This document shows, in pieces, positions 38,086 to 55,332 of a DNA stretch of 64,000 bases. Made by a program: the position numbers and the translations under genes. Each line of letters starts with the position of its first letter. The first letter of the stretch is position 1. The stretch comes from Planotetraspora phitsanulokensis (GTDB lineage Bacteria; Actinomycetota; Actinomycetes; Streptosporangiales; Streptosporangiaceae), in the NCBI RefSeq assembly GCF_016863295.1, contig NZ_BOOP01000018.1, positions 62,001-126,000 on the forward strand. Reading direction: 5' to 3'. The notes below the pieces were generated by a model, which saw only the letters and a program-made list of their open reading frames with translations, searched no databases and was not told the DNA's origin.

Positions 38086-39336
38086 CTACGCGAAGGTCTC
38101 CCCTGGCGACTCCAGCAGTGCCTTGAGCGCCCGCAGGAACAGCGCCGCGTCGCGGCCGTTGATGAGCCGGTGGTCGTAGGCCATGCCGATGTTGACGACG
38201 GTCCGGGTGACGACCTCACCCCCGTCGAGCCGGAGCTCGGCCTGGGGGGACGTCACCGCGAGCGCACACGCGTGGCCTGGGAAGATCAGCGGGACGGCCA
38301 GCGTCACGTCGCCGTCGTGATGCAGGGTGACCGCGATGTTGGCCCCGGTCAGGTCGTCCTCCCGGAAGTCCCCGGTCAGGGCGGCCAGCCGATACTCCAT
38401 CAGACGGGTCGCGATCTGCTTCACCGAGCGGCGGGCGGCGTCGTGGACGACGGGCACGTACAGCCCCTCGCCCGCGTCGATCGTCACGCCCACGTGCGGG
38501 GCGTCGGAGAGTACCGCCGACGTGTCGTCCACCAGGGTGGCGAAGCACAGCGGGAAGTCGGCGTGCAGCCGGGCGACGGCGGACGTCACCAGTTCGGGCA
38601 GGCCCACCGGCCGCCTGACCTCCCGGGTCATCCGCGCCGCGAGCTCCAGCAGCGGCCCCGCGTCGGCCTTGACCACCGTGTACGCGGCCGGAATGGTCGC
38701 GTGCGAGACGCGCACGACCTTCGCCACGGCCCGCTGCACCCTCGTGAGCTCGTACGGCCGGCCGGTCACGGCCTGCCCGGACTCTCCGGGCTCCGCGACC
38801 TCCTCCCGGGGCGCCGGTACGGAACGGGAGGCGAGCCTTTCGATGTCGGCGCGCCGCACCACGGCCACACCCAGGGCGCGCACCTGGGCCGGGTCGACGC
38901 CGAGCTCGTCGATCAGCGCCTGCGCGGGAGCCGTGATCAGCGGACCGGTGCCGGCTCCGTCCGCGGAGCCGTCTGTCGCACCACCGGCCGAGGAGCCCCC
39001 GGCCGTCGCACCACCCGCCGAGGAGTCACCGGCCGAAGCTCCGCCGCCCGCCGAGTCACCGGCGGCAGGAGACGCTCCGGGAGACGGCGCGACGGGCCGG
39101 CTCTCGTCGGCGGTGAGGCGGGCCAGCACGGCCCCGGGGGCGCAGTCGGCGTTCAGCGCGAGGACATGCCAGACGAAACCGTCCTCCTCGCTCTCCAGCT
39201 CTTCGGTGGCCTTCGAGGTCTCCAGGACCACGATCGGGTCTCCGGCCTTCACCTGCTGCCCGTCGTCGACCAGCCAGTCGACCAGGACATACGTGGAGTC
39301 GTTGTTGTTGAGCTTGGGCACGCGGATGTCAGTCAC
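38086..39336 (-). CDS. 2-oxoacid dehydrogenase E2-type acyltransferase (lipoyl protein)
   Basis: 416 aa. One N-terminal lipoyl domain (residues 1-78, lipoyl Lys near 42 in ETSKATEE), an Ala/Gly/Ser-rich linker with short tandem repeats (about 80-130), a peripheral-subunit-binding domain (about 132-165), then a catalytic acyltransferase domain ending with DHRLINGRD (His near 389). The usual DHRxxDG motif has Asn where Asp is normal. GTG start at 39336 overlaps the E1-beta stop by eight bases. Likely role: carry an acyl group formed by E1 and pass it on to CoA or a carrier protein. Last gene of the five-gene minus operon. Confidence 0.88.
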   Translation of the reverse strand: MTDIRVPKLNNNDSTYVLVDWLVDDGQQVKAGDPIVVLETSKATEELESEEDGFVWHVLALNADCAPGAVLARLTADESRPVAPSPGASPAAGDSAGGGASAGDSSAGGATAGGSSAGGATDGSADGAGTGPLITAPAQALIDELGVDPAQVRALGVAVVRRADIERLASRSVPAPREEVAEPGESGQAVTGRPYELTRVQRAVAKVVRVSHATIPAAYTVVKADAGPLLELAARMTREVRRPVGLPELVTSAVARLHADFPLCFATLVDDTSAVLSDAPHVGVTIDAGEGLYVPVVHDAARRSVKQIATRLMEYRLAALTGDFREDDLTGANIAVTLHHDGDVTLAVPLIFPGHACALAVTSPQAELRLDGGEVVTRTVVNIGMAYDHRLINGRDAALFLRALKALLESPGETFA

Positions 39337-40324
39337 GCAGGGCCTCCAGCACCGCGTCGTGAATCGTGGAGTCCTGGACGAGCACGGCGCGCTCGAGGTG
39401 CGCGGCCGTAGGGATCACGCTGTCGGCCGAGCTGACCAGCGCCACCGGGCGCCGCAGGTCGTTCCATATCAGCCGGTGGATCCGGTGGGCCACCTCGCTT
39501 CCCCACGTGCCGCCCGCGGTGCCCTCCTCGGCCACCAGTACGGCTCTCGCACCGCGGAGCACCGGCAGCAACGGCTCCGCGTCGAACGGATACAGCCGTG
39601 AGGGGACGAGCAGGCAGCAGGTGACCTCCTGCTCCAGCAGCAGGCCGCGCATGGCCCGGACCGCCCGGTCGACCATCCCGCCGGGAGCGATGATCACGCA
39701 GTCGGCCTTCTCGGGGTCGTCCAGGAAGACCCTGGCCACGTCTTCGGCTCCCGGCATGACGTCGTGCCGGAACAGATCGCCGACGTCGTTCATGTGCCGC
39801 GTGTAGAGGATCTTGTCCTCGAAGAACACGCAGGGCCCGCCGGACGCCAGCATCGCGTCGAACACCTGCCGGTTGTCGTGCAGGGGGGACATCTCGTAGA
39901 CCGACAGGCCCGGCACGCCCACGAAGTGTTTCTGCAGGCTCTGGCTGTGCGTGGGCCCGTATCCGCGTCCGCCGCCGGTCGGGCACCGGACGACCATCCG
40001 GATCGGCACGCGGGAGCCGTACATCGTGACGGACTTGGCGGCGAAGTTGACGATCTGGTCGAACGCGAGCGCCACGAAGTCGCCGAACATGATCTCGACG
40101 ACGGCCGCGTCGCCGCACAGCGCGAGCCCGGCGGCCAGGCCGGTGATGCCGGACTCGCTGATCGGGGTGCCGAGCACCCGTTCGGGGAAGCGGCTGGACA
40201 GCCCTTTTGTGATCTTGAAGGCTCCGCCGTACGGGTCGAGGATGTCCTCGCCGATCACGTAGGCCGACGGGTCCGACTCCAGCAGCCCGTGGAGGGCGGC
40301 GTTGAGGTTCTCCCCCACCCTCAT
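39329..40324 (-). CDS. 2-oxoacid dehydrogenase E1 component, beta subunit
   Basis: 331 aa, of the AcoB/PdhB/BkdB type: GEDILDPYGGAFKITKGL, then the SESGITGLAAGLAL segment, the GGGRGYGPTHSQSLQKHF segment and a C-terminal transketolase-like domain with EEGTAGGTWGSEV. With E1-alpha it forms the thiamine-diphosphate site. Starting at the ATG at 40324 gives a four-base overlap with E1-alpha (a GTG at 40333 is an alternative). Length is normal. Substrate cannot be predicted. Confidence 0.92.
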   Translation of the reverse strand: MRVGENLNAALHGLLESDPSAYVIGEDILDPYGGAFKITKGLSSRFPERVLGTPISESGITGLAAGLALCGDAAVVEIMFGDFVALAFDQIVNFAAKSVTMYGSRVPIRMVVRCPTGGGRGYGPTHSQSLQKHFVGVPGLSVYEMSPLHDNRQVFDAMLASGGPCVFFEDKILYTRHMNDVGDLFRHDVMPGAEDVARVFLDDPEKADCVIIAPGGMVDRAVRAMRGLLLEQEVTCCLLVPSRLYPFDAEPLLPVLRGARAVLVAEEGTAGGTWGSEVAHRIHRLIWNDLRRPVALVSSADSVIPTAAHLERAVLVQDSTIHDAVLEALRD

Positions 40325-41241
40325 GGTCGCCACCTCGACGGCGGGCGGGCGGAGACCTCACGCACGATCGCGTCGACGCGGGCGCGCTGGGCCTCGTCGG
40401 CGCGGGCGAACCGCTCGGGGTCGGCCTCGGCGTACAGGCGGTACCAGTCGTTGTCGCGGGCCTGCCGTACGGTCTCCGGATCGCGGGTGTCGTCGCCCTT
40501 GCTGTGCGGGCCGAGGCGGTGGGTGGCGAACTCCACGACCAGCGGCCCGCCTCCGGACCGCACCCCGGCGACAAGCGGCGCGAGCTCGTCCCTGATGGCG
40601 CTCAGATCGGAGGACTCGATGCCGTGGTGGCGCACGCCGAACGCCTCTGCGCGGGCGCGGACGGTACCGGCCATCTGACGGGTGGTGGGTGTCGACTGGG
40701 CGATCCCGTTGTTCTCGACGATCACGAGCAGCGGGAGACGCCAGAGCGAGGACAGGTTGAGCGCCTCGTAGACCGCGCCCTCGCCCCACGTGCCGTCGCC
40801 GATGAAGACGCAGGCGAGCGCGCCGGGCTCGGTGCGCTTGAGGTGCAGCGCGACGCCCGCGGCCACCGGGAGGCTCTCCCCCTGCACGCCGGTGGAGACG
40901 TATCGGTCGCGCAGGATGTGCTGGCTGCCGCCCACCCCGCCGCAGACCGCGCCCTCCCGCCCCATGATCTCGGCGAGGAGCCCCGCCGGGTCGTCGAACC
41001 TGGCCAGGTAGTGGCCGTGCCCCCGGTGGTTGCCGAAGACGTGGTCGGCGTCGGCGAGCAGCCGCCGGAGCGCGACGGGGACGTACTCCTGCCCGAGGCA
41101 GGTGTGCGTCGTGCCGTTGAGCTCGCCGCGCCCGAACAGGTCGAGCAGCGCCAGTTCGAAGTGCCGGATCAGGAGCAGCAGGGCGAGGTCGTCGTCATCG
41201 GCCCGCCGCGCGTGGAGGACGGCCGCGCCCGTCTCGGTCAC
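40321..41241 (-). CDS. 2-oxoacid dehydrogenase E1 component, alpha subunit
   Basis: 306 aa. The thiamine-diphosphate motif GDG (residues 148-150) ... NN (177-178) is present, with the preceding GGVGGSQHI and GVQGESLPVAAG segments typical of AcoA/PdhA-like proteins. The phosphorylation-loop histidine region (HRLGPHSKGDD) is intact. Shorter than PdhA because the N-terminal extension is minimal. GTG start at 41241 overlaps the stop of the condensation-carrier gene by four bases. With E1-beta it decarboxylates a 2-oxoacid or cleaves an alpha-hydroxyketone and acylates the E2 lipoyl arm. Confidence 0.92.
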   Translation of the reverse strand: MTETGAAVLHARRADDDDLALLLLIRHFELALLDLFGRGELNGTTHTCLGQEYVPVALRRLLADADHVFGNHRGHGHYLARFDDPAGLLAEIMGREGAVCGGVGGSQHILRDRYVSTGVQGESLPVAAGVALHLKRTEPGALACVFIGDGTWGEGAVYEALNLSSLWRLPLLVIVENNGIAQSTPTTRQMAGTVRARAEAFGVRHHGIESSDLSAIRDELAPLVAGVRSGGGPLVVEFATHRLGPHSKGDDTRDPETVRQARDNDWYRLYAEADPERFARADEAQRARVDAIVREVSARPPSRWRP

Positions 41242-42827
41242 CGGCGGCTGCCCGACGCGTCGGGCAGTCCCGGCTCGGTTCCGGCCGCCGCGATGGACTC
41301 AAGGACACCCGCGATGGTCGGCGCGTCGAAGAAGACGTCGAGCGGGACCTCGATGTCCAGGCGCTTGCGCATCCGCGCGATGATCTGGGTGATGGTCAGC
41401 GAATGGCCGCCGAGATCGAAGAGGTCCTCCTCGTCGCCGATCTCGTCGATGCCGAGCACCTCTTGCCAGATGGCCCTGATCTCCTCGGCGAGGTCCGTCT
41501 GGCCGGTACGGCCCGCCGCGATGTCCTCGATGACAGTGTCCGGATTTTTCATGATTGAAGTGAGGTCCTTCGCTATGAGAGTGACATCCGGAAGCGTGCG
41601 CGAGCTGTACTGCATGATCACGTCGAGCCCGTCGGGTCCGTCGACGGCCTGGAGGTGCAGGGTGCTGCGGACCGCGTGGTTGAACGCCGTCCAGTCCACG
41701 GTCGTGTCCACTCCGGCGAACTCGGGCGCCTCCCGCCTCCGGCGATAGCTGACCGAGACGGGCGCCAGAGCCGTACGGGGCCGCAGCCCACGGACGGCGC
41801 GGGCGAGCGGCACCTGGCGGAACCGGTACATGAGCCGCAGGTCGTCGTGGAACCGCCCGGCGAGCCCGGCGACGGTCATGCCGGGGGCGGGCGCCGACCA
41901 CACGGGAAGCTCGTTGACGAACAGGCCGATGTGGTCGCGTACCTCCGGCGTGCGTGTGGACATGTCGACGGCGCACACCGGCTCGGCGTTGCCGTACGAG
42001 AAGAGCAGGGCGTGCACCGACGCGAGGAAGACCTCGAACCGGGAGACGCCCGGAACGTCGCGCAACTCGGCGCGGAAGGCGTGGACGCCGCCTTCCGCGG
42101 CCCCACGTGACCGTGCCGCTCCGGCGGACCCGCCAGACGCCCCAGGCCGTCCGGACAAGCTGGATGCATCAGGCCGTCCGGGCAGACCGGACCCCGGGCC
42201 TGACGCCCCGGACCCGCCGGATCCCCCTGGCGCCCCGGGAAGGACCGGAAGCACGACCTCGCCTGGCTCCCGCCAACGCCCGCGCCAGTAGTCGCCGGCC
42301 TCGCCGAGAACGGCCTGGACCCGTTCCCGCTCCGCCGCCGCGTGGTCCGCGTACGACATCGTGAGGCGGGTGAGCGGTCGCCCGTCGTAGAAGGCGGCCA
42401 GATCGCGGACGAGCACGTCCTTGGACTCGCCGTCGAAGACCAGATGGTGCGCCACGATCAGCAGCACGTGGCGGGAGGACGACACCCGGACGAGCGTGAA
42501 CCGGGCGAGCGGCCCCTTCTCCACGTCGAAGGGCAGCAGGGTCTGCGCGCGCACCAGCGGGCCGAGGTCCTCCGCGGCCGTGACGACGACCTGGGGACGC
42601 TCCGCGGGCACCTCGACCGGTATGCCGTCCCGCTCCTCGATGGCGGTGGCCAGGACCGGGTGGCGCCGCACCAGCGCCTCGCACGCCTGGATCAGCGCGC
42701 AGGCGTCCAGCGGTCCGTCGAAGGTGATCAGCAGCGGCATGTGATAGGCGGATCCCGCCCGGCCCATCCGCTCGGTGAGCCACATCCCCACCTGGGCGAA
42801 CGAGGCCTGCCTCAGGTCGGCGCTCAT
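41238..42827 (-). CDS. NRPS condensation domain fused to a carrier (T) domain
   Basis: 529 aa. Residues 1-440 are a condensation domain with the catalytic HHLVFDG motif (His 127-128, Asp 132). A Gly/Ser/Pro-rich insertion at about 198-247 separates the two halves of the condensation domain. A carrier domain follows (about 445-515) with the phosphopantetheine motif GGHS (Ser 476), and a short tail. No adenylation domain, so the carrier must be loaded by the separate ligase at 42824. ATG at 42827 overlaps the ligase stop by four bases. Likely joins two acyl/aminoacyl chains via an amide bond. Confidence 0.9.
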   Translation of the reverse strand: MSADLRQASFAQVGMWLTERMGRAGSAYHMPLLITFDGPLDACALIQACEALVRRHPVLATAIEERDGIPVEVPAERPQVVVTAAEDLGPLVRAQTLLPFDVEKGPLARFTLVRVSSSRHVLLIVAHHLVFDGESKDVLVRDLAAFYDGRPLTRLTMSYADHAAAERERVQAVLGEAGDYWRGRWREPGEVVLPVLPGAPGGSGGSGASGPGSGLPGRPDASSLSGRPGASGGSAGAARSRGAAEGGVHAFRAELRDVPGVSRFEVFLASVHALLFSYGNAEPVCAVDMSTRTPEVRDHIGLFVNELPVWSAPAPGMTVAGLAGRFHDDLRLMYRFRQVPLARAVRGLRPRTALAPVSVSYRRRREAPEFAGVDTTVDWTAFNHAVRSTLHLQAVDGPDGLDVIMQYSSRTLPDVTLIAKDLTSIMKNPDTVIEDIAAGRTGQTDLAEEIRAIWQEVLGIDEIGDEEDLFDLGGHSLTITQIIARMRKRLDIEVPLDVFFDAPTIAGVLESIAAAGTEPGLPDASGSRR

Positions 42828-44335
42828 GCCCGGGCCCGCAGCGCGCGCTTGTCGACCTTGCCCCCGCGATTGCGTGGAAGGGACTCCATCCTGACGATCT
42901 CCGAGGGGATCTCGTGCTGGGCCAGCCGGTCGCGCAGGAAGGCCCGGATGTCGGCGTCGGGCACCTCGGTCCGCAGGACGACGGCCGCGGCTACGGTCGT
43001 GCCGAGGACGTGATGGGGAAGGCCGTAGGCCGCGGCCTCGACCACCGCGGGATGCTCGTACAGCGCGTTCTCGACCTTCAGGGTTGAAACCTTGAAAGCG
43101 CCCGACTTGACGACGTCGCCGTCGCGGTCGACCAGGTAGAGGTAGCCGTCGTCGTCGAGATACCCGAGGTCGCCCATGCGGATCCAGCCGCCTCGGAAGA
43201 CCTCGGTGCTGGCCGCGGGATCGTCGTAGTACGAGCGGGGCGCGGCCGGTGAGCGCATCCACACCTCGCCGGTCTGGCCGGGCGGGAGGTCCGCGCCCTC
43301 CGGCGAGGCGATGCGGACGTCGCCGCCCGCCGCCGACCTGCCGACGGAATCGGGCCGGTCCGGGTCGAAGAGCATGATCGTCTGCGCCGGGGCCGCCTCG
43401 GTCGAGGTGTAGTAGTTGGTGATCGTCGCCTTCGGGAACATCCGGGTCAGGCCGGACGCGACCGCCGGCGGAAGCGGCGCGGCGGCCGAGCCGAGCAGCA
43501 GCACGCTCGACAGGTCCGGGCCCTCCTGGAGGTTGAGCAACTCGACGGCCATGGCCGGCACGAGGAAGACCGTTCCGGCCCGGTGCCTTTCGATGAGCGC
43601 GGCGAACCGTCCCGGTGTGAAGCGGGGCAGGGTGACGACGGCGGGGTGCGCGGTCAGCGCGTTGACGAGCATCATCTGCCCGGCGTTGGTGCCGATGGGG
43701 AACGCGTGGACCAGATGCCGGGAGTGGGCGAACGCCCGGCGTCGCGGCTGGGTCCGCGCGCCGAAGGCCAGGTTGGCGTGCGTGGCCGCGACGCCCTTCG
43801 CCTTGCCGGTCGTGCCGGACGTGTAGAGGATCTGCGCCATGTCGGCGGGCCTGAGCGTCACCTCAGGCGGCGACATGGAGCCCTCGAGCGGCGGCCTGGA
43901 GCCCTCGGGCGGCGACGTGGAGCTGCCCGCCCTACCCTCGGGCGGCGACGTGGAGCTGCCCGCCCCGCCCTCGGGCGGCGGGCCGTCCCGGCCGGTGAGG
44001 ATCACGGACGCCGAGCAGTGTGCGGCGATCTGCTCGATCTCCGCGGCGGGCATGCGGTCCGACATCGGGACGGCCACCGCGCCCGCCTTCAGCACCCCGA
44101 GGAACGCCACCGCGTAGTCGATCCAGCCGGAACCGGGGTACACCAGTCCGACCCGGTCGCCGCGGCGCACGCCGCGATTCAGCAGGTCGTGGGCCACGGC
44201 GTTCGACCGCGCCTGCCATCGCCCGAAGGTGAGTTCTCCGGACCCGTGCACGATCATCGCAACGGTTTCCGGCTCGGAAGCCGCCCGCGCGGCCAAAATG
44301 TCGGGAAGGGTTGGCGTTTCGAGCACGCTTCTCAA
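42824..44335 (-). CDS. Adenylate-forming ligase (AMP-dependent acyl/amino acid-activating enzyme)
   Basis: 503 aa. Core motifs: A3 YTSGTTGKAKG (about 171-181), the NYYTSTEA segment, GDLGY, the DRD hinge region, and the A10 lysine in GGKVDK (Lys near 493). The sequence around the substrate pocket (PIGTNAGQ) looks like a carboxylic-acid (acyl-CoA synthetase-like) enzyme rather than a typical amino-acid A domain. A 40-residue Gly/Ser/Pro/Glu insertion with tandem repeats (119-158) precedes A3. TTG start at 44335 follows GGGGGG by seven bases. Probably loads a carrier protein in this cluster. Confidence 0.85.
   Translation of the reverse strand: MRSVLETPTLPDILAARAASEPETVAMIVHGSGELTFGRWQARSNAVAHDLLNRGVRRGDRVGLVYPGSGWIDYAVAFLGVLKAGAVAVPMSDRMPAAEIEQIAAHCSASVILTGRDGPPPEGGAGSSTSPPEGRAGSSTSPPEGSRPPLEGSMSPPEVTLRPADMAQILYTSGTTGKAKGVAATHANLAFGARTQPRRRAFAHSRHLVHAFPIGTNAGQMMLVNALTAHPAVVTLPRFTPGRFAALIERHRAGTVFLVPAMAVELLNLQEGPDLSSVLLLGSAAAPLPPAVASGLTRMFPKATITNYYTSTEAAPAQTIMLFDPDRPDSVGRSAAGGDVRIASPEGADLPPGQTGEVWMRSPAAPRSYYDDPAASTEVFRGGWIRMGDLGYLDDDGYLYLVDRDGDVVKSGAFKVSTLKVENALYEHPAVVEAAAYGLPHHVLGTTVAAAVVLRTEVPDADIRAFLRDRLAQHEIPSEIVRMESLPRNRGGKVDKRALRARA
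43876..43980. repeat. In-frame tandem repeats in the ligase gene
   Basis: About three imperfect copies of a GGCGGCGACGTGGAGC-type unit of roughly 33 bp, encoding repeated PPEG and GSSTS segments just before the A3 loop of the ligase. The reading frame is kept. Copy boundaries are approximate. Confidence 0.65.
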
Positions 44336-44856
44336 TTGGCTGCCCCCCGAATGGTTCGGATGATTATCGGACGACCGACGCGCTAGACCATGCCTTACTG
44401 AAAAGGTTGTTTCCAGTTTCCCCAGAGAGCCAGTCTTACATGGGGCACCAACTGGAGACAAGCGATTCCGCACTTCGCGAGGACGCCGCCGCAGGCTTCA
44501 CGGATTGACCAGCGGGTCTTGAGACTGCGACGGAGCCGTGCAAGACTTACGGCCATCCACTAATTGCAAACCTTCTTTTCAGTTAGTAACCGACAAGGCC
44601 TTCGGCCTGGCCATTTCGTCTGCATTCATCCGACCACATGGGGGATCATCCCGGAAATGCATGCCATCTCAGAGATTCGCGCCCTTATGCGCAGGAACGG
44701 TCTTCTTCCCGCGTGAACACCGCCCAGATGAGACCGATCCCCCATGGTCTGGCGAAATCGACCAGCGGTCCCGCGGCCCGGCGATCTCTCCGATCCCCCG
44801 ACGCCGGGACCCGAGGACGGACCCGCTGAGAACGGATCCCTGAGAGCGGAGGCGGA
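44336..44856. promoter_or_regulatory. Divergent control region of the biosynthetic cluster
   Basis: 521 bases, AT-richer than the genes around it. ACTGAAAAGGTTG at 44397-44409 recurs inverted as ACTGAAAAGAAGGTTTG on the minus strand at 44583-44567, so the two operons may each have a site for one regulator. ACTAA (44559) and TTAGT (44583) flank the second copy. A perfect 11-bp inverted repeat, CATGGGGGATC at 44637-44647 and GATCCCCCATG at 44736-44746, brackets 88 bases closer to the plus operon. No regulator gene is in the cluster. The open frames here lack coding character. Confidence 0.5.
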
Positions 44857-45093
44857 ATGCTCAAGGAACGACTGGCGCAACTGGTGTCGGAGGCCTGCGA
44901 CGGGGAGATCACGGCGGCCGAGGCCCTGGGCGCCACCGTCCCCCTGTCCTACCTCGGCGTCACCTCACTGGCCCAGATGCGCCTGATCGACGCGCTCGAG
45001 CGCGAGTACGACATCGAGATCGACCTCGCCGACGACGTCTCGTTCCTCGACAGCGTCGACGGCCTCGCCGCGTGGGTGTCGGCGGCCCGATGA
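44857..45093 (+). CDS. Acyl carrier protein
   Basis: 78 aa. Phosphopantetheine Ser 37 is in the L-G-V-T-S-L-A-Q motif, and downstream R-L-I-D-A-L-E-R-E-Y-D-I-E-I matches helix II-III of carrier proteins. It is free-standing (no fused enzyme). The ATG at 44857 follows GGAGG. Its stop overlaps the start of the condensation gene by four bases. It probably carries the second acyl group of the cluster, from the E2 or from the ligase. Confidence 0.85.
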   Translation: MLKERLAQLVSEACDGEITAAEALGATVPLSYLGVTSLAQMRLIDALEREYDIEIDLADDVSFLDSVDGLAAWVSAAR

Positions 45094-46364
45094 TCACTTT
45101 CACGGGGGCACGCAAGGGCACGGCGCCCCTGACCTGGGGCCAGCGGGCCATCTGGGACGCCATCCAGCGGACCGCGCCCGACGACCACTACTTCAACTTC
45201 GGGCGGATCCTCGAGACGCCGCGGGGGGCGCGGCCCGCCTCGATCGCCCACGTGGCGCGGAGCGTCGGCCTGCTCGTCGAGCGGCACGAGGCGCTGCGCA
45301 CGCTGATCGGGCCCGGCCCGGTCCAGGACCTGCGCGAGCGCGGCGAACTGCCCCTCCGGATCGCGGTGGACGCGGAGCCCCGCGCCGTCCTCGCAGAGTT
45401 GTCCGCGACCGCCTTCGACTACGCCGCCGAGTGGCCGGTCCGGGTCGCCTTCGTGACCAGTGGCGACGAGGTCACGCACGTCGTGCTCGTGTTCTGCCAC
45501 CTGGCCGCCGACGGGATCGGCGCGGAGGAGGTCGTCCGCGATCTGCGACTGCTCCTTCTGCGCGGAGGCCTGGGCGGCGGCCCTCCCCCGCAGCCGTTCG
45601 ACCTCGCCGAGTGGCAGGCGTCGCCCGCGGGCCGGCGGCAGGCGGCGGGCGCGGCCGCGTTCTGGGAGCGCGAACACCGCAGGATGCCGCCCACGATGTT
45701 CCACGTCCCCTCGGGAGCGGCGGAGCACCCGCCCGTCTGGCGGGCCACGCTCAGCTCGCCGGCGGCCGACCTGGCCGCCCAGCGCCTTGCCGTACGGCAT
45801 GGCACGAGCACCTCGACCGTGGTGCTCACCGCCGTCGGGACGCTGGTCGCGGAGGTCACGGGACACGAGACCGTCACCGTGCTGCCCATCGTCAGCAACC
45901 GCTTCCGTGCCACGACGCGCACGGCGGTGACCACGCTGTCGCAGGAAGGGCTGTTCGTCCTCGAAGCGGGCAAGTCCCGGTTCACCGACCTGCTTGCCGC
46001 GTCGGGCCCCGCGGTGTTGCGGGCCTACCGCAGCGCCTACCACGACCCGGCCGACCGTGAGCGGGTCGTCGCGGGGGCGGCCCGCGAGCGCGGCACCCCG
46101 ATCCACCCGTACTGCTGTTTCAACGACATGCGCTTCGTCGAGCAGGCGGTCTACCGCGACGAGGAGCTGATCCGCCGGGCGCTGCCCGAGACCTCCCTGT
46201 CCTGGCCGCTCAGCCAGGACAAGCTGAACTGCCGTTTCTGCGTGCACCTCGCGGGCGCCGGGCAGATCTCGCTCACCGCCGACACCCGGTGGTTGTCCCG
46301 GCCGGACATCGAGCGGTTCCTGCTCGGCCTGGAGAGGATGCTCGTCGAGGCGGCTCTCCGGTGA
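45090..46364 (+). CDS. Stand-alone condensation-domain protein
   Basis: 424 aa with the chloramphenicol-acetyltransferase-like fold of NRPS condensation enzymes. The active-site motif reads C-H-L-A-A-D-G (His 137, Asp 141) where H-H-x3-D-G is usual; the catalytic second His and Asp are kept. It lacks a carrier domain. It is coupled to the ACP gene (ATGA) and to the following gene. Likely transfers an acyl group held on a carrier protein to an amine (or hydroxyl). Confidence 0.85.
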   Translation: MITFTGARKGTAPLTWGQRAIWDAIQRTAPDDHYFNFGRILETPRGARPASIAHVARSVGLLVERHEALRTLIGPGPVQDLRERGELPLRIAVDAEPRAVLAELSATAFDYAAEWPVRVAFVTSGDEVTHVVLVFCHLAADGIGAEEVVRDLRLLLLRGGLGGGPPPQPFDLAEWQASPAGRRQAAGAAAFWEREHRRMPPTMFHVPSGAAEHPPVWRATLSSPAADLAAQRLAVRHGTSTSTVVLTAVGTLVAEVTGHETVTVLPIVSNRFRATTRTAVTTLSQEGLFVLEAGKSRFTDLLAASGPAVLRAYRSAYHDPADRERVVAGAARERGTPIHPYCCFNDMRFVEQAVYRDEELIRRALPETSLSWPLSQDKLNCRFCVHLAGAGQISLTADTRWLSRPDIERFLLGLERMLVEAALR

Positions 46365-48352
46365 CGGTCCGCGCCCACGCCACCGCCACCTCCTGCGCGC
46401 AGGGCGGGGAACTGGGCTTCCGCCTGGACACCGCCGAGCCGGTGGGCGTGACCGTCCACGACGCGACCAGCGACCGGCTCGTCCTGGCGGCCACGGTCCG
46501 CGGCCCGTCCTGGACGTTGCGCGTGCCCGGGGACTGGCCGAGCTCGCTCTACCGGGCGCGGTTCGTCGCCGGCCCTCCGGAGCCGGACGTGCTCGTCCCC
46601 CGGCCCACGGGCGACCTGCCCGGTGTCGGCACGTCGCCCGACGACGAGGTCTACTTCGTCGTACGGCAGGCCACTCCGGGGTCGACCTCGCCCATCCTGG
46701 TGTCCGTCCCGTTCACCACGTGGCAGGCGTACAACCGGGCGGGCGTCCCCGGGGAGAGCCTCTACTGGACCGAGCAGCCCGACCGCGCGTCCCGTGTGAC
46801 GTTCGACCGGCCCGGCGGCGGGCCGCCTCCCGAGCGGTGGGAGGACGGGCTGCTGCGCTGGCTCGCGCCGGCCGGGTACACCGTCGAGTACTGCTCCGGC
46901 CTCGACCTGGAGCCCGGCCTGCTCGCCGCGTACCGCCTGCTGATCGTCAACGGGCACGACGAGTACTGGTCGGCGGGCATGCGCGACGCCTGTGAGGGGT
47001 TCGCCAGACGCGGCGGGAACATCGCCTTCTTCTCCGGGAACACGTGCTGGTGGCAGATCCGCGTCGAGGGCCGCACCATGGTGTGCCATCGCGATCCGCT
47101 GACCGATCCCGTGGACGACCCCGCCCTGACCACGGTCGAGTGGTCGAGCGCGCCCGTCTCCCGGCCGGAGAACTCGCTGACCGGGGTCAGCTTCCGTAAC
47201 GGCGCGGGCACCTGGGGGCCGTCCATGACGCTGATGCGGGAGGAGTCGTACACCGCGCGGTTCGCCGCGCACTGGGTGTTCGAGGGGACGGGCCTGACAG
47301 ACGGCGACAAGTTCGGGCAGGGCTCGCTCGGCTACGAGACCGACGCCGCCGAGTTCGCCGAGGTGATGGGGATCCCCCGGGTGACCTGCCGGGACGGCAC
47401 GCCCTCGACGTTCGTCGTGCTCGCGACGGCCGACCTGCGGCACTGGAGCTCCGGCGGGCAAGGCGGCTGGGCCACGATGGGCGTCTTCTCCCTCGGCCGC
47501 GGCACGGTCTTCAACGCGGCCACCGTCAACTGGGGGAACACCATCCACGATCCAGTTGTGGAGCGGATCACGCGGAACGTCATAGACCGGCTGTCCCGGC
47601 CGCCCGCACCCGGCTGGGAGGTCATCGGCCCGGTCGCCGACGTCCGCGCGCTGGCCGGCTGCGGCTCGGCGCTGTACGCCGTGAGCGCCGACGGCGTGCT
47701 GCTCGCCCGCGAGTTGTGCGGCCAGAACATGCAGTGGATGCCGACCGGCCGTGCGGGGGGCGTTCTGTGCCTGGACGCCCCGCGCGAGGCAGGCTCCGGC
47801 TTCGGCACCGGCCTGTACGGTGTGACCGCCGAGGGCGTGCTCCGCTACCGCGAGGCCGCGCCGAGCCCGGCGGGCACAGCGATGGACACGGCGACGGGCA
47901 TGTTGACGGGCATGTTGACGGGCACGTTGACGGGCACGGCCGGATCACCGGGGTGGGCCGGGGGCACGGGCGAGTGGACCGACCTGGGCACGGCGCCCGA
48001 CGGCACGATCGCCCTCGCGGTGCAGGACGGGACGTTCTTCGCGGCCACCTCGGCGGGACGCCTGTGGGCGGTGACCTTCGCCGAGCTCGCCGCGTCCCCG
48101 CGAGCCGATTGGCACGACGCCGGGGACTCGGCCGGCGCCGTCTGCCTGAGCGGGAGCAACGGCCGGGTCTACTCCCTGGGAGCCGACCACCTGATCCGCG
48201 CCCGGCTGCCCGTCCCCGTCCCCGCCGCGTGGTCGCTCGTCGGCGAAGCCCCCGGAGCGGCGGTCCTGACCGCCCACGCGGGGCTGCTCGTCACGGCCGC
48301 GAGCGGCCAGCCGTTGCGGTGGCGGCCCGCCGCGACCTTCATCGCCCGCTAG
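46361..48352 (+). CDS. N,N-dimethylformamidase beta-subunit-like protein
   Basis: 663 aa. The central and C-terminal region has the DmfA2-type signature: ILVSVPFTTWQAYNRAG, VNGHDEYWSAGMRDACE and RGGNIAFFSGNTCWWQ, plus VFNAATVNWGNT, as in the large subunit of dimethylformamidase. The last 200 residues form a tryptophan-rich beta-repeat region (beta-propeller-like), interrupted by a Thr/Gly/Met-Leu repeat. No signal peptide. It is the third gene of the plus operon, overlapping the condensation gene by four bases. It may hydrolyse or make an amide in the product. Confidence 0.8.
   Translation: MTVRAHATATSCAQGGELGFRLDTAEPVGVTVHDATSDRLVLAATVRGPSWTLRVPGDWPSSLYRARFVAGPPEPDVLVPRPTGDLPGVGTSPDDEVYFVVRQATPGSTSPILVSVPFTTWQAYNRAGVPGESLYWTEQPDRASRVTFDRPGGGPPPERWEDGLLRWLAPAGYTVEYCSGLDLEPGLLAAYRLLIVNGHDEYWSAGMRDACEGFARRGGNIAFFSGNTCWWQIRVEGRTMVCHRDPLTDPVDDPALTTVEWSSAPVSRPENSLTGVSFRNGAGTWGPSMTLMREESYTARFAAHWVFEGTGLTDGDKFGQGSLGYETDAAEFAEVMGIPRVTCRDGTPSTFVVLATADLRHWSSGGQGGWATMGVFSLGRGTVFNAATVNWGNTIHDPVVERITRNVIDRLSRPPAPGWEVIGPVADVRALAGCGSALYAVSADGVLLARELCGQNMQWMPTGRAGGVLCLDAPREAGSGFGTGLYGVTAEGVLRYREAAPSPAGTAMDTATGMLTGMLTGTLTGTAGSPGWAGGTGEWTDLGTAPDGTIALAVQDGTFFAATSAGRLWAVTFAELAASPRADWHDAGDSAGAVCLSGSNGRVYSLGADHLIRARLPVPVPAAWSLVGEAPGAAVLTAHAGLLVTAASGQPLRWRPAATFIAR
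47893..47940 (+). repeat. 12-bp microsatellite, about four units, in frame
   Basis: Four copies of GACGGGCATGTT (third and fourth with one or two changes) within the DMFase-like gene, encoding T-G-M-L repeats. Reading frame is preserved. Confidence 0.85.
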
Positions 48353-48406: not shown

Positions 48407-49090
48407 TCAGAGAATCACGGGACCGTAGAGGGCGGAGCCCGCGCGCCGGGTCATGGCCCAGTAGCGGTCGCCGTACGACCAGTGCCACCACTCCGTGGGA
48501 TAGTTCACGAGCCCGGCCGCCTCCAGCGCCACCCCGAGGACCTTGCGGTTCTGCCGGGCGTCCGGGCTGATGCCCGGCGCGGCGGTGTAGCAGGCGCCGT
48601 CGCTCTGCTCCGGGTTGGCGTTGACGGCCGTGCCCATGTCGAGCTCGACCCCGTCGTCGTCGCACATGGTGAGGTCGACGGCCGCGCCCGCCGTGTGGGG
48701 GGCCACCTCTATCGGAGAGACGTACCGGCTCGCCGCGACATGCAACTCCTCTTCCGACATATCCGGAAAAGTCATGCGCAGTTCGGCCTTGTAGTCCTCG
48801 AAGTACCGCCGTTGCAGGAAGACCGGCCGATACCCCTCGACCACCACGATGTGGAATCCGCCGGGAAGCCTGCTCTGCGCGTCCTCGAGCCTGGTCAGCA
48901 CGCCCTGCCTCAGGTGGGCGTAGGCGCCCTCGGGGTCGGCGAGGCGCGCGTCCACCCGGAGCCGTCCGCGGACGTCGGCCAGCGGCTCCCCGCATTCACG
49001 GACCGGTATCGACGTCACCCGGGTGTCCGAGATCAGGGTGATTCCAGCGGCGTCCGCCGCCCGCGCGGGACCGTGCGATGAGTCAGGCAT
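48407..49090 (-). CDS. D-alanyl-D-alanine dipeptidase (VanX/DdpX family)
   Basis: 227 aa, cytoplasmic. The metal-site motif appears as H-T-A-G-A-A-V-D (His 132, Asp 139) and E-W-W-H (Glu 200, His 203); the essential Arg of the EGYRP segment is near residue 88. VanX in glycopeptide resistance destroys D-Ala-D-Ala; DdpX-type enzymes recycle it. Here there are no vanH/vanA genes, and the gene lies 16 bp downstream of a ROK regulator beside a wall-sugar operon, so recycling is favoured. ATG at 49090. Confidence 0.88.
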   Translation of the reverse strand: MPDSSHGPARAADAAGITLISDTRVTSIPVRECGEPLADVRGRLRVDARLADPEGAYAHLRQGVLTRLEDAQSRLPGGFHIVVVEGYRPVFLQRRYFEDYKAELRMTFPDMSEEELHVAASRYVSPIEVAPHTAGAAVDLTMCDDDGVELDMGTAVNANPEQSDGACYTAAPGISPDARQNRKVLGVALEAAGLVNYPTEWWHWSYGDRYWAMTRRAGSALYGPVIL

Positions 49091-49106
49091 GAGGAGCAAC
49101 CTACCG

Positions 49107-50270
49107 TCAGACGGTGTCGGAGAAGACCTCCTCCCTGGCTCGCGCCAGGGCCGCGACCATCGCGCCGCGGAGGACGGGATTGCCCTCGACCTGCGTCACC
49201 GCGACCGTCGGCCGGCTGGGGCACACCCGCGCGACGGCCTCCTCGACCCGGGCCGCGAGCTCCCGCCCTCCGGCCCGGCCGACGTCCCCGCTCAGCACGA
49301 CGAGACCGGGATCGAGCACGACGGACACAGCGGCGACCCCGACGGCCAGGCGATCGGCCAGGTCGTCGACGAAGGCGTCATTGCCGGTGGCGAGAGCCGT
49401 ACGGACCAGGTCCGCGACGTCGGCTCCGGACGACAGGCCGTGGGTCTCCGCGAGGCCGGTGAGGGCGTCGCCGCCGACCAGGCGCTGGAAGGAGCCCGAC
49501 TGCGGCTCGGTGACGTCGGTCGGGAGCGGCTCCCCGGGAACGGGCAGCCAGCCGATCTCGCCGGCGCCCCCGGTGATGCCCCGGTGCAGCCGGCCGCCGA
49601 GCATGACGCCGAGCCCCTGGCCGATCCCGGCCCACAGGATGGCGAAGTCGTCGACGCCCCGGGCCGCGCCGTGCTCCTGCTCGGCCAGGGCCGCGAGGTT
49701 GACGTCGTTCTCGATGATCACGTACTCGCCGAGCAGGGTCCGCAGCCCGGCGAGCACGCCGACGTGCCACGCGGGCAGGTCGAAGGAGTAGCGGATCTCG
49801 CCGCTCACGGGGTCCACCACGCCACGGGTGCCGATGACGAAGCAGCGCAGCCGGGTCAGCGCGACGTCCGCGGTCTCACAGGCCCGCAGGACCGCGCCGT
49901 ACACCGTCCGGACCGGGTCCCCCGCGTCGGTCGGATCGACGGTGATCTCGGCGACGACCTTCCCCGTGATGTCGGCCACGGCCGCGGTGACGCTGTCCGG
50001 CAGCACCTCGAGACCCGCCACGTAGGCGCTCGCGGGGTTCACGCCGTACAGGGCGGCGTTGGGGCCGCGCCCTCCCGGCCGCTCCCCCGCCGTGGTCACC
50101 AGGCCGCGCGTCTCGAGGCGGGACAACAACTGACCGGAGGTCACCTTCGACAGGCCGGTGAGCTCTCCCAGCTCCGCCCTGGTCAGCGGGCCGCGGGAGA
50201 GCAGCAGTTCCAGCGCCGCCCGGTCGTTGATCTGACGGAGCAGCCGAGGTGTTCCCGGTCGTAGAGGCAC
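49107..50270 (-). CDS. ROK-family transcriptional regulator, first of two paralogues
   Basis: 387 aa. N-terminal winged helix (LRQINDRAALELLLSRGPLTRAELGELTGLSK) followed by a ROK sugar-kinase-like fold with the END-V-N motif near residue 190. The zinc motif C-x-C-G-x2-G-C of ROK kinases is absent, so it is a repressor rather than a kinase. GTG at 50270 follows GAGAGGGAG by 7 bases; a longer start exists at 50291. It is divergent from the sugar ABC operon and shares its layout with the paralogue at 55333. Effector probably an amino sugar or derivative. Confidence 0.88.
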   Translation of the reverse strand: MPLRPGTPRLLRQINDRAALELLLSRGPLTRAELGELTGLSKVTSGQLLSRLETRGLVTTAGERPGGRGPNAALYGVNPASAYVAGLEVLPDSVTAAVADITGKVVAEITVDPTDAGDPVRTVYGAVLRACETADVALTRLRCFVIGTRGVVDPVSGEIRYSFDLPAWHVGVLAGLRTLLGEYVIIENDVNLAALAEQEHGAARGVDDFAILWAGIGQGLGVMLGGRLHRGITGGAGEIGWLPVPGEPLPTDVTEPQSGSFQRLVGGDALTGLAETHGLSSGADVADLVRTALATGNDAFVDDLADRLAVGVAAVSVVLDPGLVVLSGDVGRAGGRELAARVEEAVARVCPSRPTVAVTQVEGNPVLRGAMVAALARAREEVFSDTV

Positions 50271-50315
50271 TGGCTGGCTCCCTCTCGTCACGATCCGCTA
50301 ACACGGGTTTTTTTA

Positions 50316-50339
50316 AAGAAACTTTCTTGTTAGTTTAAC
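50316..50339. promoter_or_regulatory. Candidate ROK operator(s)
   Basis: AAGAAA C TTTCTT (50316-50328) is a perfect palindrome, followed directly by GTTA GTT TAAC (50329-50339). They lie between the divergent ROK gene and the ABC binding-protein gene, in an AT-rich island of otherwise GC-rich DNA. The core GAAACTTT recurs upstream of the second ROK gene. Confidence 0.6.
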
Positions 50340-50483
50340 GGCAGCCACCCCGGAGGCAAGCGATCAGCCCTCGGGATGCCACGAGCGCCGACCGGACGGA
50401 ATGCGTCATCCAGCAGGTGGAGGTCCGCCGACACCCCGCATGAGCGCACCCCCGACGTGAAGCCGGGAAGGGAGAAACCCATC

Positions 50484-51809
50484 GTGAAGATCGTGAAGAT
50501 CGCGGTCGCGACAAGCGTCACCGCCGCACTGGCCCTGGGTCTCGCCGCATGCGGCAGCGACTCAGGAACGACCGAGCCGACCGGCGCGCCGGCGGCCTCG
50601 GGTCCCAAGTTCGCTGGTCAGACCCTCACGGTCTGGCGGCTCGGCGCGCCCACGGACGTAGCCGACAAGTACATGAACGACCTCAACGCGAAGTTCAAAG
50701 AGGTGACCGGCGCCGACGCCAAGGTGCAGTGGATCCCCTGGCCTGACGCGCAGAAGAAGTGGACCGCGGCGCTCGCCGGCGGCGAGGGCCCGGACGTCAC
50801 CGAGTTCGGCAACGACCAGGTCGCGGCCTGGGTCGCGCAGGACGCGCTGACGGACATCACCGACGTCGTCAAGGGCGACAGCGAGCTCCAGCAGATCCCG
50901 CAGAACCTGTGGAGCTACGAGACGATCGACGGCAAGGTCTACGCGGCCCCGTGGGGCGGCGGCACCCGGGCCGTCCTCTACCGCAAGGACTGGTTCGACA
51001 AGCTCGGCATCCAGGCGCCCAAGACCTGGGACGAGCTGGTCGCCGCGGGCAAGACGATCGTCGACAAGGAGGGCAAGGACGTCGACGGCTTCGCCTTCAA
51101 CGGCGGGTCCGACGCGAACATGTCCCTGTCCCCCTTCGTCTGGTCGGCGGGCGGCGACTTCGCCGCCTTCGAGGGCGGCAAGTGGGTGGGCAAGCTCACC
51201 CAGCCCGGCTTCAAGGAGGGCTTCCAGTTCTACACGGACCTGGTCGCCAAGGACGGCGTCTCCGGTAAGGGCCGCCTGACGCAGAACTCCGTCGACATCG
51301 CCCAGCGCTTCGCCGCCGGCAAGGTCGGCATGTACGTCACCGGTGGCTGGGACATCGCGGCCATCAAGGAGCAGAGCAAGGGCAAGATCGACGAGTCCAA
51401 GATGGGCTTCTTCTCGCTCCCCAACAAGGACGGCAGCGGCCCGGCTCCGGCCTTCCAGGGTGGCAACGACATCGCCATCTGGAAGGACACCAAGAACGTC
51501 GAGCTCGCGGCCGAGTACCTGAAGCTGGCCTCCGGCAAGGAGTTCGGCGTCCGGTACGCCAAGGAGGGCGGCCTGCTCCCGCTCTACCCGGACGCGCTCA
51601 CCGAGATGGGCACCGACCCGGCGCAGAAGCCCTTCACCGACACCTTCGCGGTGGCCAAGGGCTTCCCGGCCAGCCCCAACTGGGCGGAGGCCAACGACAC
51701 CAAGGCGGTGCTGCAGAACGCCGCCCGCTCGGTGATCGACGGCAAGAAGACGGTCGACCAGGCTCTGGCGGACGCCAACGGCGAGCTTGAGACCATCCTC
51801 AACCAGTAG
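50484..51809 (+). CDS. Sugar ABC transporter substrate-binding lipoprotein
   Basis: 441 aa of the family-1 extracellular solute-binding proteins. The signal peptide ends in a lipobox L-A-A-C (Cys near 21). Tryptophan-rich pocket segments (QWIPWPDAQKKWTAAL, WGGGTRAVLYR, GGWDIAAIKEQ) are consistent with an oligo- or amino-sugar ligand. GTG at 50484 with GGGAG at 10 bases. First gene of a three-gene importer; no ATPase gene is in this operon, so a shared MsiK-type ATPase may serve it. Confidence 0.9.
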   Translation: MKIVKIAVATSVTAALALGLAACGSDSGTTEPTGAPAASGPKFAGQTLTVWRLGAPTDVADKYMNDLNAKFKEVTGADAKVQWIPWPDAQKKWTAALAGGEGPDVTEFGNDQVAAWVAQDALTDITDVVKGDSELQQIPQNLWSYETIDGKVYAAPWGGGTRAVLYRKDWFDKLGIQAPKTWDELVAAGKTIVDKEGKDVDGFAFNGGSDANMSLSPFVWSAGGDFAAFEGGKWVGKLTQPGFKEGFQFYTDLVAKDGVSGKGRLTQNSVDIAQRFAAGKVGMYVTGGWDIAAIKEQSKGKIDESKMGFFSLPNKDGSGPAPAFQGGNDIAIWKDTKNVELAAEYLKLASGKEFGVRYAKEGGLLPLYPDALTEMGTDPAQKPFTDTFAVAKGFPASPNWAEANDTKAVLQNAARSVIDGKKTVDQALADANGELETILNQ

Positions 51810-51815
51810 GCATTG

Positions 51816-52832
51816 ATGGCTCAGACGTCAACCGTCGCCCGGGGCGGAGGAGACCCCTCCGCCCCGGCGCGCCGGCACAGCCCCCGGCCAAGACGCAGGA
51901 CCGGCCTGCCCAACTGGCTGGTCCCCTACGCCCTGCTCCTGCCCGGACTCCTGGTCATCGCGGCGCTGTTGCTCTACCCGCTGTACCAGATGGTCGACAT
52001 GTCCTTCCATCAGGTCGGGCTCCGGCAGATCAGGGCGATCAACCCCACCCCTGCCGAGTTCGTCGGGCTCGACAACTACAACAGCATCTTCGAATCCGAC
52101 CTCTTCTGGACCTCGCTGCGCAACACCGTGGTCTTCGCGGTCGTCACCGTGGCGCTCACCCTGCTCCTCGGGACGCTCGTCGGCCTGCTGCTCAACAAGC
52201 TCGGCCCGAAGATGTCGACGTTCGTCGTCGTCGGCATCATGGCAGCCTGGGCCACCCCGCCCACGGCGCAGGCGGTCGTCTGGAAATGGTTGTTCGACTC
52301 CGACGCGGGCGTGGTCAACTGGACGCTGAACCTGCTGCCCGACTGGCTGTCGAACCTGGTTTTCGGCCGGTCGGACTGGAGCGGGCAGCCCTGGTTCAAC
52401 GACACGATCACGCTCTATCTCGTGCTCATCGTCGCCGTCGTGTGGGCGTCGTTCCCGTTCATCGCGGTGTCGGTGCTCGCGGGACTCAAGAGCATCCCCT
52501 CGGAGCTGTACGAGGCGGCGCGGATGGACGGCGCGACCGCGTTGTCCACGTTCAGGAAGATCACCTTCCCGCTGCTCAAGCCGGTCTTCTCGGTGCTGGT
52601 CGTCCTGTCGACCATCTGGGACTTCAAGGTCTTCACCCAGCTCTACCTGCTGGCGGGCGGCACGGTGAATCGTGACGCGTTCAACCTCTCGTTGTGGAGC
52701 TACGCCGAGGCCTTCAGCAGCCCGCCGAAGATGGGACTCGGCGCCGCGATCGCCGTCGTGCTGACAGGCATCCTGCTGGTCATCACCTTCGTTTACGTCC
52801 GCAACATCATCAAGACGGAGGACGTGCGATGA
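51816..52832 (+). CDS. Sugar ABC transporter permease
   Basis: 338 aa, MalF-like. After a basic N-terminal extension of about 30 residues there are six membrane segments. The EAA loop (SELYEAARMDGATALSTFRKITFPLLKP) is present. Start ATG at 51816, six bases after the binding-protein stop. Its stop overlaps the start of the second permease by four bases. Confidence 0.92.
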   Translation: MAQTSTVARGGGDPSAPARRHSPRPRRRTGLPNWLVPYALLLPGLLVIAALLLYPLYQMVDMSFHQVGLRQIRAINPTPAEFVGLDNYNSIFESDLFWTSLRNTVVFAVVTVALTLLLGTLVGLLLNKLGPKMSTFVVVGIMAAWATPPTAQAVVWKWLFDSDAGVVNWTLNLLPDWLSNLVFGRSDWSGQPWFNDTITLYLVLIVAVVWASFPFIAVSVLAGLKSIPSELYEAARMDGATALSTFRKITFPLLKPVFSVLVVLSTIWDFKVFTQLYLLAGGTVNRDAFNLSLWSYAEAFSSPPKMGLGAAIAVVLTGILLVITFVYVRNIIKTEDVR

Positions 52833-53680
52833 GCCCGCTCGCCAGGAAGAGGCTCGGCCGGGTCGCGCTCAACGCGGCCGGCGTCGCGGTGTTCCTGTTC
52901 GCCGTCTTCCCCGTCTACTGGATGGTCGCCACGGCCTTCAAGCCGAACGACCAGATCTTCACCACCAGCTTCATCCCGTTCCCCGACCCTCCGTCGATGG
53001 ACCACGTGTCCCGCGTCTTCACTCAGGGCGTGGCCGGGAACTCCATCTGGCGCTATCTGCTCAACAGCACGATCGTGGCCCTCAGCGCGGTCGTCATCGG
53101 CGCGGTCTTCGCACTGCTCGCGGCGACCGCGGTGGCGCGGTTCCGGTTCCGGTTCCGCACCTCGTTCCTCATCCTGCTGCTGATCGTGCAGATGGTGCCC
53201 GCGGAGGCGCTGCTGATCCCGCTGTTCACCATGGTCAAGCGGCTCGGCCTGTACGACCAGTTGCTCGGGCTGATCGTCATCAACGTGGGCCTGACGCTGC
53301 CGTTCTCCGTGTGGATGTTGCGCACGTTCGTCGCGGCGGTCCCGAAGGAGCTGGAGGAGGCGTCCTGGATCGACGGCGCCGGCCGGTTCACCACCTTCTG
53401 GCGGGTCCTGTTCCCGCTGGTCGCACCTGGCCTGGTGGCGACGAGCATCTTCTCGTTCATCACCACGTGGAACGAGTTCGTCTTCGCCCTCACCCTCATC
53501 GGCGACCAGGGCAAGTACACGATGCCCGTCGCCCTGCAGTTCTTCGTCGGCCAGCGGTCGACGGACTGGGGCGGCATCATGGCCGCCTCGACCCTGATGA
53601 CCATTCCGGTCCTCATCTTCTTCCTGCTCGTCCAGCGGCGCATGGTCTCCGGACTCGTCGCGGGCGCAGTCAAGGGATAA
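52829..53680 (+). CDS. Sugar ABC transporter permease
   Basis: 283 aa, MalG-like. Six membrane segments, first at about residues 13-36. The EAA loop reads KELEEASWIDGAGRFTTFWRVLFPLVAP. It is coupled to the first permease (ATGA). Together they form the membrane channel of the importer whose binding protein is encoded at 50484. Confidence 0.92.
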   Translation: MSPLARKRLGRVALNAAGVAVFLFAVFPVYWMVATAFKPNDQIFTTSFIPFPDPPSMDHVSRVFTQGVAGNSIWRYLLNSTIVALSAVVIGAVFALLAATAVARFRFRFRTSFLILLLIVQMVPAEALLIPLFTMVKRLGLYDQLLGLIVINVGLTLPFSVWMLRTFVAAVPKELEEASWIDGAGRFTTFWRVLFPLVAPGLVATSIFSFITTWNEFVFALTLIGDQGKYTMPVALQFFVGQRSTDWGGIMAASTLMTIPVLIFFLLVQRRMVSGLVAGAVKG

Positions 53681-53781
53681 CCCCGCTACGGGCACCCGTA
53701 CGGCCCCGCCCCACGAAGGCGTGGCCCGTACGGGCATGCCCGCGACATCCGCACCTCCTACAGGTAAGGAGCCGAGACAGC

Positions 53782-55275: not shown

Positions 55276-55279
55276 GCCG

Positions 55280-55316
55280 CCACCCGCGGCGCCAGCGGGG
55301 GCTGCGCCGCGGGTGG
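55280..55316. terminator. Bidirectional terminator hairpin
   Basis: Perfect 13-bp stem (CCACCCGCGGCGC / GCGCCGCGGGTGG) with an 11-base loop, between the convergent stops of the GH3 and second ROK genes. Confidence 0.8.
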
Positions 55317-55332
55317 TCCACCCGCCGCCTCG

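Follow-up and report, generated by a model that had tools for sequence, protein, structure and literature searches.

A compact E1/E2 dehydrogenase cluster in Planotetraspora phitsanulokensis as the possible charging half of a two-locus nonribosomal pathway

Gene content of the locus

The DNA considered here, referred to as the window, is a stretch of 64,000 nt from the 9.17 Mb draft genome (G000) of the soil bacterium Planotetraspora phitsanulokensis (GCF_016863295.1, contig NZ_BOOP01000018.1, positions 62,001-126,000 of the forward strand; G000:C18:62001-126000), whose positions 38086-48352 hold a cluster of eight genes in two divergent operons, combining the E1 and E2 components of a dehydrogenase with an AMP-forming ligase, carrier proteins, condensation enzymes and a dimethylformamidase (DMFase)-like protein. 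All eight genes are intact and show high third-position GC. Five minus-strand and three plus-strand genes had been assigned in an original prediction made from the DNA letters, and Pfam confirms each of these parts. In the following list ACP and PCP denote acyl carrier protein and peptidyl carrier protein, C-PCP a didomain of condensation and carrier domains, A domain the adenylation domain, C2 the second condensation enzyme and TPP thiamine pyrophosphate.

38086..39336, minus strand: E2, lipoyl plus 2-oxoacid dehydrogenase acyltransferase domain, 416 aa (PF00364, PF00198)
39329..40333, minus strand: E1-beta, Transket_pyr plus Transketolase_C, 334 aa (PF02779, PF02780)
40321..41241, minus strand: E1-alpha, TPP-binding (E1_dh), 306 aa (PF00676)
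41238..42827, minus strand: C-PCP, condensation plus carrier domain with no A domain between, 529 aa (PF00668, PF00550)
42824..44326, minus strand: AMP-forming ligase, a stand-alone adenylation enzyme, 500 aa (PF00501, PF13193)
44327..44856, no strand: divergent control region of ~530 bp separating both operons
44857..45093, plus strand: ACP with GVTSL motif, candidate glycolyl carrier, 78 aa (PF00550)
45090..46364, plus strand: C2, free-standing condensation enzyme with HxxxDG motif, 424 aa (PF00668)
46361..48352, plus strand: DMFase-like amidohydrolase with C-terminal beta-propeller, 663 aa (DMFA2_C)

The claimed coupling within each operon and the shared control region were borne out, as all junctions overlap by 4-13 nt, namely 8 nt for E2/E1-beta, 13 nt for E1-beta/E1-alpha and 4 nt each for E1-alpha/C-PCP and C-PCP/ligase in the minus operon, and 4 nt each for ACP/C2 and C2/DMFase-like in the plus operon. 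The starts of C-PCP and of the DMFase-like gene were corrected to 42827 and 46361, respectively, neither of which is the first start codon of its frame. The catalytic and cofactor motifs are intact, comprising GDG in E1-alpha, DHRxxxG and the lipoyl motif ETSKA in E2, GVTSL in the ACP, HHxxxDG and GGHS in C-PCP, HxxxDG in C2 and A3 and A10 in the ligase. Between Planotetraspora species, the ratio of nonsynonymous to synonymous substitution rates (dN/dS) is 0.11-0.36 for each of the eight genes, which amounts to purifying selection, and no frameshifts were found. The earlier description as a nonribosomal peptide synthetase (NRPS)-like system holds for the condensation, carrier and ligase parts; an amino-acid-activating domain is missing from the eight-gene cluster, and the Pfam scan detected no further NRPS genes in the window.

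The dehydrogenase cassette

The E1 and E2 proteins were compared with models of primary-metabolism dehydrogenases, whereby all scores fell far below the curated cut-offs: E1-alpha reached 179.8 bits (equivalog cut-off 393.85), E1-beta 169.3 (cut-off 321; the model of pyruvate dehydrogenase E1-beta is among those missed by far) and E2 110.6 (cut-off 449). The weak best matches of E1 and E2 are pyruvate and 2-oxoglutarate dehydrogenase models, and the nearest solved structures to E1-alpha are pyruvate dehydrogenases. The E1/E2 set had been called complete, which is true of E1-alpha, E1-beta and E2; no E3 was detected by Pfam in the operon or cluster, and the genome has its strong matches to lipoamide dehydrogenase on other contigs. 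For E1-alpha, no second copy of this type was found in the genome, its closest match there being 32% identical; its nearest named relatives are those of Planotetraspora kaengkrachanensis (94%), P. silvatica and P. mira (both 92%). The DHRxxxG motif of E2 is kept in 79 of 79 orthologues.

Precedents for such a cassette are known. In the scleric acid cluster scl of Streptomyces sclerotialus, SclQ1-SclQ4 (76, 305, 338 and 386 aa) were proposed to generate ACP-bound glycolyl from a ketose phosphate for condensation by a C domain (PMC6335953). The corresponding window proteins, encoded like those of scl by separate genes, are of similar size (ACP 78, E1-alpha 306, E1-beta 334 and E2 416 aa). Beyond this cassette, scl also comprises a C-A-PCP NRPS for proline, a thioesterase (TE), genes for benzoate, an ATP-grasp ligase and regulators of the mmf type. 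What accompanies the cassette in the window is instead a stand-alone ligase, C-PCP, a free condensation enzyme and the DMFase-like protein; scl-type C-A-PCP NRPS, thioesterase, benzoate and ATP-grasp genes were absent from the Pfam-scanned genes of the cluster and its flanks. For dnacin and naphthyridinomycin, a 306-aa E1 (DinU/NapB), a fused E1-beta/E2 and a 76-aa ACP (DinT/NapC) were reported, with a role assigned from homology and earlier work (PMC7570522); NapB/C/D, DinU/T/S and QncN/M/L are described there as supplying an NRPS C domain with two carbons taken from a ketose. These systems share with the window a TPP-dependent E1, a lipoyl E2 and a small ACP (76 versus 78 aa), but their E1-beta and E2 are fused, and they comprise a KASIII protein and Pictet-Spengler NRPS modules, neither of which is present in the window. 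The fused layout of NapD/QncL does occur in two of the retrieved loci (L089, L113; see below), whose E1-alpha proteins are 67-68% identical to that of the window.

Co-encoding of E1-alpha, E1-beta, a lipoyl E2 and a dedicated small ACP, as in the Qnc, Nap and Scl glycolyl-ACP cassettes, together with the model scores makes it well supported that E1/E2 is a dedicated, carrier-feeding biosynthetic dehydrogenase. The earlier suggestion that such a dehydrogenase is tied to an ACP and NRPS-type enzymes in the manner of naphthyridinomycin biosynthesis is hence upheld by the matching cassette sizes and by gene proximity in the family (see below). The acyl unit may by analogy be glycolyl, QncN, NapB and SclQ being set alongside by description only.

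Separately, E1/E2 cassettes were seen, upon judging translations by eye, beside an ACP-like gene (L101 from Streptomyces noursei, and L120) and beside a KASIII-like gene (L101, L068). These three loci suggest two-carbon starters in further cluster types.

Ligase, condensation enzymes and DMFase-like protein

The window copy of the ligase is its only match in the genome and the sole member of its family found there. Its pocket, mapped by motif and not by structure, lacks Asp at the alpha-amino-binding position and hardly varies among 53 sequences, whether these come from compact or from expanded clusters (defined below), for which reason the enzyme probably activates one and the same non-alpha-amino carboxylic acid in every cluster of the family. 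The carrier of C-PCP does not group with canonical NRPS carriers but in a separate clade (support 100/99), the nearest solved structures to C2 are NRPS condensation domains, and its HxxxDG motif is kept in 35 of 35 sequences. A free-standing condensation domain within an NRPS-like pathway is described for fatty acid amide pathways (OaaC), for which the abstract mentions no dehydrogenase cassette (PMC13142362), whereas the window holds two condensation enzymes.

A single-sequence AlphaFold model of the DMFase-like protein (predicted local distance difference test, pLDDT, 33) was discarded; an alignment-based model of medium confidence (pLDDT 62.6) matched N-acetyl-(R)-beta-phenylalanine acylase (8huy) and DMFase (6lvb) in Foldseek, its C-terminal part matching beta-propellers such as fishelectin. 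The protein shares DMFA2_C with the DMFase large subunit and the 8huy acylase, and its HDEYW motif, unchanged throughout 13 orthologues, places a Glu opposite Glu521 of DMFase, which is an iron ligand of that enzyme and the position mutated in 6lve. The two Tyr iron ligands of DMFase fall outside the sequence alignment, invariant Tyr residues being present in that region. Identity to 6lvb and 8huy in the structure comparison is only 14-19%, and the window protein differs from both by its extra C-terminal beta-propeller and its NRPS-type cluster setting. A literature search for DMFase-like proteins in such clusters gave no matching description. The natural guess, by analogy, is a probable late step in which the protein would cleave or remodel an amide; its gene is absent from some relatives of the cluster.

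A widespread cluster family

GTDB genomes were searched with an E1-alpha profile, which identified 151 relatives and allowed 80 loci to be retrieved, onto which the window proteins were mapped. The order ligase, C-PCP, E1-alpha, E1-beta, E2 recurs in Planotetraspora, Microbispora, Microtetraspora, Acrocarpospora, Planobispora, Planomonospora, Streptosporangium, Sinosporangium, Nonomuraea, Thermoactinospora, Spongiactinospora and several Streptomycetaceae, and the window has the layout of this family, i.e., a ligase/C-PCP/E1/E2 operon with divergent ACP-C2(-DMF) genes. Among 201 Streptosporangiaceae genomes, the ligase is present in 70, E1-alpha in 67 and both in 64, whereby Fisher values for this co-occurrence overstate significance because the genomes share ancestry; 71 of 95 E1-alpha genes lie within 15 kb and 46 of 95 within 4 kb of a ligase gene. 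The association is not exclusive, since ligase and condensation paralogues without E1/E2 occur in sister clusters and the E1/E2 cassette is also found without ligase. The objection that these genes might sit in unrelated contexts therefore applies in part.

In most relatives the cluster also encodes C-A-PCP NRPSs ending in a fused thioesterase-MFS (TE-MFS), and such an NRPS occurs in 67 of the 70 ligase-bearing genomes. Acrocarpospora encodes one such C-A-PCP-TE-MFS protein (1685-1745 aa) between ligase and ACP, precisely where the window has only its short divergent region; no in-cluster NRPS of this type is present in the window. Alignment of the A domains in the relatives gave the codes DFTKIGHVG, DILQLGVIW, DTEDIGTII and DVWHISLID, which we take, on the published specificity code, to specify Asp, Gly, a basic residue (the least certain assignment) and Ser, respectively. 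The gene combination, initially thought to be singular and self-contained, is hence not singular, and a self-contained nature is not supported: the dehydrogenase cassette has precedents and the cluster is, as judged from gene content, a reduced form of a widespread family.

Clusters without an NRPS within the retrieved flanks are referred to as compact, those with one as expanded. The window and 12 other labelled loci are compact, and both forms interleave on the E1-alpha/E1-beta tree with 6 changes, at least 5 of which are forced by well-supported branches, while a contig break at L047 hides its state and may account for one change and L090 and L099 lie near contig ends. On this tree the compact form arose several times independently, as losses or gains. 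Whole-genome searches of the 12 compact genomes revealed a full-length TE-MFS NRPS elsewhere in 10 and a single ligase in 8. The compact Nonomuraea sp. SBT364 and N. endophytica possess a remote C-A(Asp)-PCP-TE-MFS NRPS that is 60% identical over C-A-PCP and 72-74% identical in TE to the Acrocarpospora in-cluster protein, and in its fetched flanks none of the other cluster genes was detected. Such a pattern would be expected after relocation, or after a loss next to a paralogue.

Some observations on the wider family stand beside these findings. Seven Nonomuraea loci (L088, L094, L095, L100, L102, L106, L125) represent a second type, in which E1/E2 lies beside a TE-MFS NRPS and no ligase is present; their A-domain codes are Cys-like in 7/7 and basic-like in 5/7. 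Fused thioesterase-MFS NRPSs are very common in Streptosporangiaceae (G009, G019, G030, G036, G113 and others), with up to 8 matches per genome. A link to azaserine was considered upon the finding that Streptomyces fragilis L091 is a relative, and was rejected, as the azs cluster (PMC10445470) holds neither E1/E2 nor a DMFase-like gene and is a different cluster. In the literature searched, no account of acyloxyacetyl peptides or of glycolyl peptides from Streptosporangiaceae fitted the cluster, and a multi-omics paper on Planobispora rosea does not mention the enzymes of the cluster; the product of this large family is apparently uncharacterised.

A candidate partner synthetase

A further locus of the same genome is a candidate for the extending half of the pathway.

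G000:C15, ~177000-191000 (L131, L132): C2-like protein, free PCP, Gly-DTED-Ser modules, TE-MFS and an MbtH-ACP fusion, the NRPS itself lying at ~179-191 kb

Its free PCP groups with the C-PCP carriers (support 100/99), apart from 41 canonical module carriers, and a comparison of the C15 ACP with the window ACP gives a score of 137, that with 12 other carriers 28-47. Neither a ligase of the window family nor such an E1/E2 was found on this contig or elsewhere in the draft genome outside the window. The C15 NRPS is 89-92% identical among Planotetraspora species with a compact cluster, the TE-MFS part reaching 96% in P. silvatica and P. mira; four such species carry the NRPS or its TE-MFS end. 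No close orthologue was found in Planotetraspora strain A-T 1434 (L050), whose cluster contains an NRPS, or in the genome G001, which lacks the cluster.

Proposed pathway and alternatives

Since the C15 locus possesses carriers of both classes without local loading enzymes and is co-distributed with the compact cluster in Planotetraspora, we suggest, with a probability of about 0.5, that the window encodes the charging and coupling half of a two-locus nonribosomal pathway whose extending half lies at another locus. The basis is circumstantial and consists of gene content, motifs, selection, copy number, carrier classes and co-distribution. According to precedent, E1-alpha/E1-beta with TPP would initially pick up a two-carbon fragment, whose most likely source is a ketose phosphate and which would be oxidised on the lipoyl group of E2 to yield glycolyl on the 78-aa ACP, E3 being borrowed from primary metabolism. 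The ligase would adenylate the non-alpha-amino acid and load it onto the PCP of C-PCP and onto the free PCP at G000:C15. Next, C-PCP and C2 would join both units, plausibly by acylating the glycolyl hydroxyl, thus forming an acyloxyacetyl starter comparable to the benzoyloxyacetyl part of scleric acid. A C-A-PCP...TE-MFS NRPS would then add amino acids, in Planotetraspora probably the C15 Gly-basic-Ser synthetase, and the DMFase-like protein would probably act on an amide late in the pathway. More tentatively, and at somewhat less than even odds, the single ligase and E1/E2 of the window may serve two sets of cognate carriers, one in the window and one on a remote NRPS stripped of its own loading enzymes, and such uncoupling may have happened repeatedly in the family.

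Several points weigh against the two-locus reading. Thermoactinospora rubra, the strongest counter-example, possesses the full compact set and no TE-MFS NRPS, and the compact cluster of Sinosporangium album (L065), possibly a decaying form, likewise comes with no NRPS of this type and with no detectable C2 or DMF gene, so that a TE-MFS partner is not always needed. The co-distribution of the C15 NRPS is drawn from six Planotetraspora genomes of common ancestry, a C2-like protein of its own might allow the C15 locus to run separately, a second ligase or E1 could have escaped in draft assemblies, and the glycolyl identity is assigned by analogy only. T. rubra keeps alive the main rival, an autonomous pathway towards a small amide or ester which involves no NRPS and in which C-PCP would join glycolyl-ACP and the ligase acid, C2 would transfer the product to an amine or alcohol and the DMFase-like protein would trim it. 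Purifying selection, the intact catalytic motifs of both condensation enzymes and the lack of other NRPS genes in the window are all in keeping with such a pathway, which is nevertheless considered rather unlikely, given the TE-MFS NRPS in 67 of 70 ligase-bearing genomes, the apparently relocated Asp module in Nonomuraea and the C15 carriers that lack local loading enzymes.

The architecture proposed for the two-locus pathway might also apply with a 2-oxoacid such as pyruvate as E1/E2 substrate, so that the carrier would bear acetyl or another short acyl group instead of glycolyl, to which the identity of the best-scoring models and of the closest solved E1-alpha structures would fit. This variant is improbable, as every score is far below its cut-off, gene sizes and the dedicated ACP fit ketose-using cassettes, and a dedicated dehydrogenase would presumably be unneeded for acetyl-ACP. 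That the window holds the decaying remnant of an NRPS cluster could be assumed from the NRPS module that is present in the congeneric strain A-T 1434 and missing here, and from the further gene loss in S. album; but the dN/dS values of all eight genes, the lack of frameshifts and the invariant active sites speak against decay, just as the E3-less operon and the sub-threshold scores speak against an ordinary primary-metabolism E1/E2 lying beside unrelated genes, and the gene set is conserved across genera. Both of these explanations were rejected as very improbable.

Neighbouring genes

The cluster is flanked by an Lhr helicase gene on the left and by genes for an M15 peptidase, a ROK regulator and a sugar transporter on the right. 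The same flanks are found in relatives of several genera, which implies that the position of the cluster is old. The M15 (VanX-like) peptidase and ROK regulator genes (48407-50291) adjoin the cluster with synteny conserved across genera and are probably not part of the pathway. Positions 49107-56511 of the window hold a sugar ABC transporter and a GH3 hydrolase between two ROK-family regulators, probably an amino-sugar uptake locus.

Implications

Taken as a family, these loci define a large group of NRPS clusters, apparently without known product, among antibiotic producers, which would combine a sugar-derived two-carbon starter with a stand-alone ligase. If the split-locus reading is true, automatic prediction would call the window a complete cluster and the remote NRPS an orphan, and both product predictions would be wrong. 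The repeated separation of charging enzymes and NRPS would then constitute a natural experiment on the carrier contacts that allow supply in trans.

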